From assembly GCA_016929195.1 (NCBI GenBank), contig JAFGJG010000026.1:1-35581 (forward strand): 35,581 nucleotides of DNA, read 5' to 3'. Below the pieces are notes generated by a model. It did not search any database. It had not been told where the DNA came from and saw only the letters and a list, made by a program, of their open reading frames with translations. A program made the position numbers and the translations under genes. Positions 2,044-6,064 of this stretch are shown here, in pieces; position 1 is the first letter of the stretch; the number at the start of each line of letters is the position of its first letter. Origin of the DNA: Thermoleophilaceae bacterium. GTDB lineage: Bacteria > Actinomycetota > Thermoleophilia > Solirubrobacterales > Thermoleophilaceae.

Positions 2044-2122
2044 CCTGGGTAGCCCGGCGAACTCCGATGGAGTCCCGTGGCTTTGCGGACCCGCCTTGCG
2101 GCGAGGGTGCCCTAGTCCAGGG
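2044..2122 (-). ncRNA. Cyclic-di-GMP-I (GEMM-I) riboswitch aptamer
   Basis: Read on the minus strand, this leader shows the GEMM-I layout. The 5' P1 strand CCUGG is followed by AGGGCA. A 6-bp stem capped by a GCAA (GNRA) tetraloop comes next (CUCGCC-GCAA-GGCGGG). Then come the hallmark core GCAAAGCC, a stem ACUCC-AUC-GGAGU, the receptor-like segment CGCCGGGCUACC (compare the family's GCCGGGUUACC), and the 3' P1 strand CCAGG, complementary to the first. It lies 90 nt upstream of the DUF3494 start in the same orientation. Known members of this class bind c-di-GMP and control motility, adhesion and surface-protein genes. The match was made by eye; a covariance-model search would settle it. Confidence 0.85.
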
Positions 2123-3264: not shown

Positions 3265-4002
3265 ATGGATCTCGGTCTCGAAGGCAGGCTCTGCGTCGTC
3301 ACGGGCGCGACGCGCGGCATCGGCGCCGCCACCGCCCGCATGCTGACGCAGGAAGGGGCGCGCGTGCTGTCCGTCGCGCGCACGGGCGCGGACCTCGAGC
3401 TCGACGTGACCGACGCGGACGCCGGCGAGCGCGTGCTGGCCGCGTGCAGCGGGGCGCCGTGGGCGCTCGTGAACAACGCCGGCACGAGCTACGTCCGCTC
3501 CCTCGACGAGCTCAGCGACGACGAGTGGCGCGCCCAGTGGGAGCTCCACGTGATGGCGCCGCTGCGCCTGATGCGTGCGCTCGCGCCGGTCATGGCCGAG
3601 GCGGGCGGCGGCCGGATGGTCACCGTGAGCTCCTCCTCCGGCAAGCGGCCCTCGCTCACGAACGCCGCCTACTCGGTCACGAAGGCGGCGGCGCTCTCGC
3701 TCAGCCGGGTGTTCGCCGACACCTACGCCGCGGACGGCGTGCTCGTCAACTCCGTCGCGCCCGGCCCGGTGGCCACCGAGCTGTGGACCGGCGAGGGCGG
3801 CCTCGCCGACCAGGTGGCCGCGGGCACCGGCCAGACGCGCGACGAGGTGCTCGCCGCGACCCACTCCAAGCCGCCGATCGGGCGCATGGGGGAGGAGGAC
3901 GAGGTCGCCGCGGTGATCGCCTTCCTGTGCTCGGAGCAGGCCTCGAACGTGACCGGGGCCGCCTGGTCGGTGGACGGCGGCAGCGTGCCTGTGATCCTCT
4001 GA
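3265..4002 (+). CDS. Short-chain dehydrogenase/reductase (classical SDR)
   Basis: 245 aa, typical classical SDR length. The Rossmann motif TGATRGIG is at residues 13-20. NNAG follows the fourth strand, and the catalytic serine region (VSSSSG) and YSVTK (YxxxK) are intact. The C-terminal WSVDGG is typical of FabG-like oxidoreductases. The substrate cannot be told. The GT4 gene starts 3 nt after its stop, so the two are probably co-transcribed with the following YgjP-like gene. No Shine-Dalgarno is seen before the ATG. Confidence 0.92.
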   Translation: MDLGLEGRLCVVTGATRGIGAATARMLTQEGARVLSVARTGADLELDVTDADAGERVLAACSGAPWALVNNAGTSYVRSLDELSDDEWRAQWELHVMAPLRLMRALAPVMAEAGGGRMVTVSSSSGKRPSLTNAAYSVTKAAALSLSRVFADTYAADGVLVNSVAPGPVATELWTGEGGLADQVAAGTGQTRDEVLAATHSKPPIGRMGEEDEVAAVIAFLCSEQASNVTGAAWSVDGGSVPVIL

Positions 4003-5408: not shown

Positions 5409-6064
5409 ACTACCGAGTCCGTGAGTCGGAGCGGGCCCGCCGCGCCCGCATCGTCATCGACGGCGGCGGCGTGGAGGTCGTCGTCCCGCGCGGCTTCGCC
5501 CTCCGCAAGGTGGAGCCGTTCCTCGAGGAGAAGCGCCCCTGGATCGAGCGGACGCTCCGGCGCCTGCGCGAGTCGGACGCGGAGCTGCCTCCGGCCCGGA
5601 TCGAGGACGGGGGGGAGGTGCCGTACCTCGGCGAGCGGCTCGCGCTCCGCCTGCGGGACGGGCGCTCGCGGGTCACGCGCCGCGGTGGCGTGCTCCACGT
5701 GTGCGCGCCGCCCGGCGCCGCTCGCGACGTGCTCGAGTCCTGGTACCGGCGCCGCGCGCGCGACGAGGTGGCGCGGCGGCTCGACGCCGCCGTGGCCCGC
5801 GCCGGGACGCGGTACGGGTCGCTCCAGATCCGCGGGCAGCGGACGCGGTGGGCGTCCTGCTCCTCGAGCGGGGCCATGAGCTTCAACTGGAGGCTGCTGC
5901 TCGCCCCGGAGGCGATCCTCGAGTACGTGGTCGAGCACGAGGTGGCGCACCTGGAGATCCAGGACCACTCGGAGCGCTTCTGGCGGCTGGTGGAGGAGCG
6001 CTGCCCGGACTGGCGCGAGCACGAGCGCTGGCTGCGCGCGCACGGGCATGCGCTGAGGCTCTAG
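5405..6064 (+). CDS. YgjP-like (DUF45/SprT-like) zinc metallopeptidase-fold protein
   Basis: 219 aa. The family-defining region includes RWASCSSSGAMSFNWRLLL and the zinc site HEVAHLEIQDHSERFW (HExxH plus a downstream His), in the last third of the protein. YgjP-like proteins are predicted cytosolic metallopeptidases, often associated with restriction-modification or repair loci, with largely unproved function. The start overlaps the glycosyltransferase stop by 4 nt. The TAG stop lies in a CTAG shared with the convergent ABC permease gene. Confidence 0.88.
   Translation: MNYRVRESERARRARIVIDGGGVEVVVPRGFALRKVEPFLEEKRPWIERTLRRLRESDAELPPARIEDGGEVPYLGERLALRLRDGRSRVTRRGGVLHVCAPPGAARDVLESWYRRRARDEVARRLDAAVARAGTRYGSLQIRGQRTRWASCSSSGAMSFNWRLLLAPEAILEYVVEHEVAHLEIQDHSERFWRLVEERCPDWREHERWLRAHGHALRL

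Follow-up and report, generated by a model that had tools for sequence, protein, structure and literature searches.

Bacterial proteins can be fixed to the cell wall by sortases, which recognize a C-terminal LPXTG motif with a hydrophobic span and a basic tail, and by L,D-transpeptidases (Ldts; YkuD family), which in diderm bacteria attach Lpp (LdtA/B/C) and the outer membrane proteins (OMPs) of Brucella and Coxiella through a lysine or an N-terminal amine (PMC8263019). Here, we describe a locus that recalls both systems. It lies in a stretch of 35,581 nucleotides (the window), one contig (C20; JAFGJG010000026.1 of assembly GCA_016929195.1) of the 3.46-Mb draft genome of a Thermoleophilaceae bacterium of the order Solirubrobacterales. 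On the minus strand, to which all window coordinates below refer, a cyclic di-GMP (c-di-GMP) class I riboswitch aptamer precedes the gene for a secreted DUF3494 protein, which in turn overlaps the gene for an Ldt. We think it likely that the riboswitch governs an operon composed of a DUF3494 surface protein and an Ldt dedicated to its anchoring. A broader proposal, quite possible but more tentative, is that Actinomycetota employ dedicated Ldts as functional sortases for proteins ending in phi-Thr/Ala-Gly-COOH, with a c-di-GMP riboswitch directly controlling the pair in the window.

c-di-GMP-I riboswitches, DUF3494 proteins, and Ldts are each already known, and what would be new is the operon together with the pairing of tail and enzyme, as a variant of Ldt-mediated attachment. 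Like other DUF3494, or type 1 ice-binding, proteins (PF11999), the window protein has a complete domain and a signal peptide, and it may act in ice binding or adhesion. Unlike them, it has FTG-COOH as its C terminus and is paired with an Ldt. The C-terminal phi-T-G, a class of tails that we write phi-[TA]G or phi-TG, recalls LPxTG, and proteins with such tails share surface domains (DUF11, SpaA, and SdrD_B) with sortase substrates. However, the window-type protein stops at the glycine without LPXTG, membrane span, or basic tail, and its partner is a YkuD enzyme. Like Lpp and OMP attachment, the system would use a YkuD enzyme to link a protein to peptidoglycan, but the substrate has a C-terminal phi-TG tail, the host belongs to the Actinomycetota, and each substrate gene has one dedicated enzyme gene.

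A riboswitch-led operon

The window contains a c-di-GMP-I (GEMM-I) aptamer at 2045 to 2121. The Rfam model RF01051 matched there over its full length with 49.1 bits (gathering score, 35; E value, 8e-7), and it was the sole Rfam match found in the window by cmscan. The original prediction had read such an aptamer from its motifs, and the GEMM-I core GCAAAGCC, the GCAA tetraloop that forms the GNRA cap, the GCCGGG segment, and the P1 arms are all in place, the arms being CCUGG at 2117 to 2121 and CCAGG at 2044 to 2048. We conclude that the element is a c-di-GMP-I-type aptamer.

The gene behind the aptamer (797 to 1954; ATG at 1954) encodes a secreted protein of 385 amino acids that matches PF11999 (Ice_binding) with 206 bits at residues 45 to 233 and has a C-terminal domain that ends in -GPSRFTG. 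The Ldt gene (48 to 800) begins at a TTG and matches YkuD (PF03734) with 69 bits. Both gene identities thus agree with those first assigned, as does the predicted TTGA coupling, since the DUF3494 stop codon, TGA (797 to 799), overlaps the Ldt start codon, TTG (798 to 800). An AlphaFold2 (AF2) model of the Ldt (predicted local distance difference test [pLDDT], 87.8) has an N-terminal all-beta domain, putatively SH3-like, at residues 48 to 117 (450 to 659). The YkuD catalytic domain (60 to 413), supported by an alignment of Ldts and by Foldseek, has its HG...SHGCVR motif intact, and HG...SHGC.R is invariant in that alignment. Foldseek returned B. subtilis YkuD (1y7m) as the best match to the model, followed by mycobacterial Ldts (LdtMt).

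The arrangement is conserved. The order-wide survey comprised 232 genomes, 128 with c-di-GMP-I matches and 62 with DUF3494, and the DUF3494 loci were scanned with a covariance model built from aptamers of the order itself. An aptamer lay directly upstream of a DUF3494 gene at 12 loci in 12 genomes, distributed over three families (f1, f2, and f4). An Ldt gene followed at all eight riboswitch loci that had this type of DUF3494 protein and enough contig (the window, G176, G061, G057, G170, G171, G205, and G075). Three other contigs end early, 37 nucleotides (G034) and 98 nucleotides (G043) past the DUF3494 stop codon or inside the gene (G068), and the remaining locus (G071) encodes a different type of DUF3494 protein and lacks an Ldt. 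Thus, the predicted c-di-GMP-I leader of a DUF3494/Ldt operon was kept as a three-part arrangement wherever the contig was long enough. Moreover, the window genome has one c-di-GMP-I copy and one DUF3494 gene, and the two adjoin. Because a single aptamer adjoins a single DUF3494 gene and the arrangement is kept in other genera and families, the association is beyond chance. c-di-GMP would control the operon through the aptamer. In the open-access literature, with most subscription papers outside our scope, we found no earlier report of riboswitch control of a DUF3494 gene.

Carriers include a named and completely sequenced strain, Paraconexibacter antarcticus (NZ_CP098502.1; G170), judging by its name an Antarctic isolate; the others are Solirubrobacter species and environmental metagenome-assembled genomes. 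We note that in G071 the aptamer (L086:1314-1393) has an A at position 20 and precedes a DUF3494-like gene that encodes no FTG tail. In a congeneric genome (G219; L167:6650-7400), the riboswitch abuts a headless Ldt gene. That locus (L141/L167) was considered as independent proof of co-control and was set aside as a remnant, as the DUF3494 gene and the Ldt N terminus with its signal peptide are deleted.

The C-terminal tail and its neighboring Ldts

The Phe-Thr-Gly codons at 800 to 808 encode the proposed sorting signal. Among 77 complete DUF3494 open reading frames (ORFs) of the order, 49 end in exactly FTG, and 57 do so when [FYL][TA]G variants are included. An Ldt gene lies downstream of 46 of the 49 exact-FTG ORFs; of the other three, two are on contigs that stop within 100 nucleotides, and one is followed by 789 nucleotides without a detected Ldt. 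DUF3494 relatives with other C termini, some of them large multidomain proteins, almost never have an Ldt, and two of them (L056 and L095) carry LPFTG, a membrane span, and a basic end in place of the free tail and lack an Ldt gene. The region ahead of the tail is highly variable and may be an Ig-like domain or a Pro/Arg- or Lys-rich linker. The tail codons vary as well (ACC, ACG, ACA, or ACT for Thr; GGC, GGA, GGT, or GGG for Gly), as do the stop codons and the spacing to the next gene. Variation at third codon positions, stops, and spacing indicates that selection acts on the protein. No NCBIfam model spans the tail. Two ORFs deviate: one has an apparent frameshift (L061), and in another (L055:1303-3390), DUF3494 and Ldt are in one open frame through ...GFAG, either because the two are naturally fused or because the stop codon was misread in sequencing.

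The pairing of tail and enzyme extends beyond DUF3494. When the search started from the Ldts, with an alignment of a closer Ldt set that found 68 named loci, 48 of the 51 DUF3494 proteins upstream of an Ldt ended in phi-[TA]G. A survey of further YkuD genes in 41 genomes then yielded about 20 that are preceded by non-DUF3494 proteins with phi-TG-type ends (RFTG, KFTG, GVTG, RVTG, YVTG, QLTG, AMTG, and PVTG). These proteins carry DUF11, DUF7507, SpaA_4, SdrD_B, Ferritin_2, and Trypsin domains, mostly domains of surface proteins. The window genome itself has a second such pair (L181:416-1860; G000:C62), in which the gene for a ferritin-like secreted protein ending in -SPRFTG overlaps an Ldt gene and has no riboswitch. 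Across the phylum, a phi-[TA]G neighbor accompanies 16 of the 41 Ldts that have enough upstream sequence, with ends such as -APRFTG, -TPTFTG, -TPNFTG, -APKFAG, -QPGFAG, and -HPTFTG in families f13, f21, f25, f44, f53, and f79. In the pooled data, the long ORFs that lay upstream of an Ldt numbered 218, and 102 of them ended in phi-[TA]G, compared with 26 of 4,043 others (odds ratio, 136); the P value of 1e-117 is indicative only, because relatives are not independent. The window genome has four sortases, but pairs of tail and Ldt also occur in genomes without a detected sortase (G003, G009, and G012). In the open-access literature, again with most subscription papers outside our scope, we found no description of a C-terminal sorting signal for Ldts.

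Other lineages offer a further variation. Upstream of Ldt genes, L364 and L371 encode phi-TG proteins with CxxCH-type motifs and Thr-rich linkers, and these putative heme proteins are possibly wall-anchored cytochromes.

Possible mechanisms of anchoring

How an Ldt could use such a tail is suggested by its usual reaction. Ldts normally cleave the bond between an L center and D-Ala in a stem tetrapeptide whose carboxylate end is free. L-Thr-Gly-COOH would mimic that L-center-D-Ala-COOH end, as glycine is achiral. Thus, the exported Ldt, dedicated to its DUF3494 partner, may recognize the free -Phe-Thr-Gly-COOH and join the protein to peptidoglycan. In the most attractive chemistry, the protein would be the acyl donor, with Gly as the leaving group and Thr becoming bonded to an amine of the wall. 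We infer that the phi-TG tail is a C-terminal signal for Ldt-based wall anchoring, and the link would be covalent.

Two observations count against this reading. Many Ldts in the broad family have no phi-TG neighbor. Moreover, known Ldt protein substrates are linked through an amine (the Lys of Lpp; the N-terminal Gly or Ala of OMPs) and not through a C-terminal carboxyl (PMC8263019), and a C-terminal donor would therefore be new. Perhaps, then, the tail only docks the Ldt, and the protein is attached by another amine, a lysine or the N terminus, that serves as acyl acceptor. The documented links, including those of Braun's lipoprotein, LimB, and alphaproteobacterial OMPs, are all of that sort (PMC8263019), and Lys/Arg-rich linkers stand ahead of many tails. 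The tail, however, is strictly C terminal and presents a free carboxylate, like a donor end. The only extended tail seen was that of L306, -GRNPGFTGKR, encoded upstream of an Ldt gene at 4001. Moreover, the window protein lacks an Lpp-type C-terminal acceptor lysine, as it ends in -GPSRFTG, and there is no conserved Lys close to the tail. The AF2 model, with its beta domain and YkuD domain, fits the donor and docking readings alike, and we consider docking alone unlikely on the basis of the tails.

Somewhat less likely still, the Ldt could be an ordinary 3-3 cross-linker that is co-regulated with a secreted protein in order to reinforce or reshape the wall in the c-di-GMP state, with the tail serving otherwise. 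The fold and motif are indeed those of ordinary Ldts, and the related Ldts without a phi-TG neighbor would be expected. Nonetheless, cross-linking leaves unexplained why tail and Ldt go together almost one to one in secreted proteins that are unrelated to one another, and the Ldt is lost in those DUF3494 relatives that carry a sortase signal. The original prediction had proposed a wall cross-linking enzyme as well as an anchored adhesin. Linkage of -FTG-COOH to adjacent Ldts across unrelated surface proteins favors the anchored adhesin and disfavors the cross-linker.

If Ldt-mediated anchoring is correct, the Actinomycetota would possess, beside sortase, a second class of system that anchors proteins to the wall by their C termini, one recognizable by a short searchable signal (phi-TG-COOH) and by a layout of one enzyme gene for one substrate gene. 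It would also explain the role of some of the numerous actinobacterial Ldts. In the window, it would tie c-di-GMP directly to the anchoring of a surface protein in soil bacteria of a class that has received little study.

Probable ligand and expression platform

The window aptamer resembles RF01051 members in its full-length match above the cutoff, its GNRA loop, its ligand-contact positions, and its location in a leader, and it differs by an ACC/UCC internal loop and by a 90-nucleotide expression platform with a long-range helix, P0. Its ligand is presumably c-di-GMP. In our own alignment to the published Vc2 aptamer, in which we take the ligand contacts to be G20, A47, and C92, the G-A-C positions are intact, and the G at position 20 is unlike the A-A-C of cyclic AMP-GMP (c-AMP-GMP) aptamers. 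Moreover, the genome encodes 24 GGDEF domains, and c-di-GMP signaling is therefore likely there.

Some features of the leaders speak against c-di-GMP sensing. The internal loop of c-di-GMP-I aptamers is usually near invariant as AAA/GAC, and the window deviates from it. Moreover, position 20 is not G in 4 of the 12 leaders (L068, L081, L086, and L117), which makes their ligand less certain, and in two of these (L081 and L086) it is A, as in c-AMP-GMP aptamers. Perhaps the subgroup has drifted and has either lost its response to c-di-GMP or come to sense a different cyclic dinucleotide. We regard drift as improbable, however, as the window retains all three contacts, the GGDEF domains are numerous, and the aptamer is the best-conserved part of the 12 leaders, with 85% column identity across families. 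Finally, the co-varying loops ACC/UCC, AUC/UCC, AGC/UGC, ACU/UUC, and ACA/GUC recur in many c-di-GMP-I aptamers of the class that have very different genes as their targets. Thus, the window loop is probably ordinary variation, and the idea that DUF3494 genes have a new riboswitch class of their own was rejected on the same grounds. The Rfam variants c-di-GMP-I-GGC and c-di-GMP-I-UAU were also considered; several relatives matched best there, yet below the cutoff, and for the window the reported match is RF01051.

How the aptamer would communicate with the operon is suggested by P0. The 5' strand of P0, GAGCAG (2125 to 2130), lies immediately 5' of the aptamer and pairs with CUGCUC (1974 to 1979), a strongly conserved sequence that ends 7 nucleotides ahead of the DUF3494 Shine-Dalgarno sequence, GGGAGG (1961 to 1966; assigned by sequence and conservation). 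Between aptamer and platform, the minimum free energy fold of the window leader has a linker hairpin (CCACC..GACCGC/GCGGUC.GGUGG; 2003 to 2042) whose sequence is variable in relatives. Over the 12 leaders, P0 pairing was found in 94.4% of cells, compared with 24 to 44% in slid registers, in an alignment that was anchored manually on the hexamers and is thus biased in favor of P0. Three leaders have compensatory changes (GAGCG/CGCUC in L060, GAACA/UGUUC in L069, and GAACAG/CUGUUC in L086), and the number of double changes was reached by 0 of 500 shuffles. Single-leader shuffle tests were mostly below significance, and support for P0 comes instead from hexamer position and from compensatory changes across leaders. 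We conclude that P0 is probably the expression platform, and a testable one for these riboswitches.

As P0 surrounds the aptamer and adjoins the ribosome-binding site, it is likely the output of the switch and would itself act as the switch. Binding of c-di-GMP would close P1 and thereby alter formation of the P0 helix beside the Shine-Dalgarno sequence, and control would most likely be exerted at translation initiation. The Ldt gene would be translated through its overlapping start. By eye, the stretch from aptamer to gene shows no U-run terminator, and no terminator scan was run there. Against this scheme, access to the Shine-Dalgarno sequence in constrained folds was not consistently altered by aptamer formation. 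An attempt to deduce the direction of the switch from the same folds was dropped, as they gave no consistent on or off answer.

That the FTG ending is a mere by-product of translational coupling, through stop/start overlap or an RNA element, is very improbable and already contradicted by the counts: although NTGA-type overlaps are common (GGATGA and GGTTGA), third codon positions are free to vary, 26 of the 49 exact-FTG ORFs have GGC ahead of the stop and hence no ATG that overlaps it, TAA and TAG stops occur, and Ldt starts range from -14 to over +30 nucleotides.

Other leaders are built differently. In two leaders of close DUF3494 homologs (L064 and L066), the GGACACCAGAGCAG box is kept and the aptamer is lost. 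In many c-di-GMP-I leaders of the class (L144, L146, L148, L156, L161, and others), the 3' end of the aptamer merges into the Shine-Dalgarno sequence (CCGAAGGAGG), a run-in that suggests direct sequestration, unlike the long platform of the window. Finally, c-di-GMP-I aptamers also occur in pairs on the same strand about 800 nucleotides apart, as at G173:C206:5074-5154 and 5888-5970 and at G179:C1:3813900 and 3814782.
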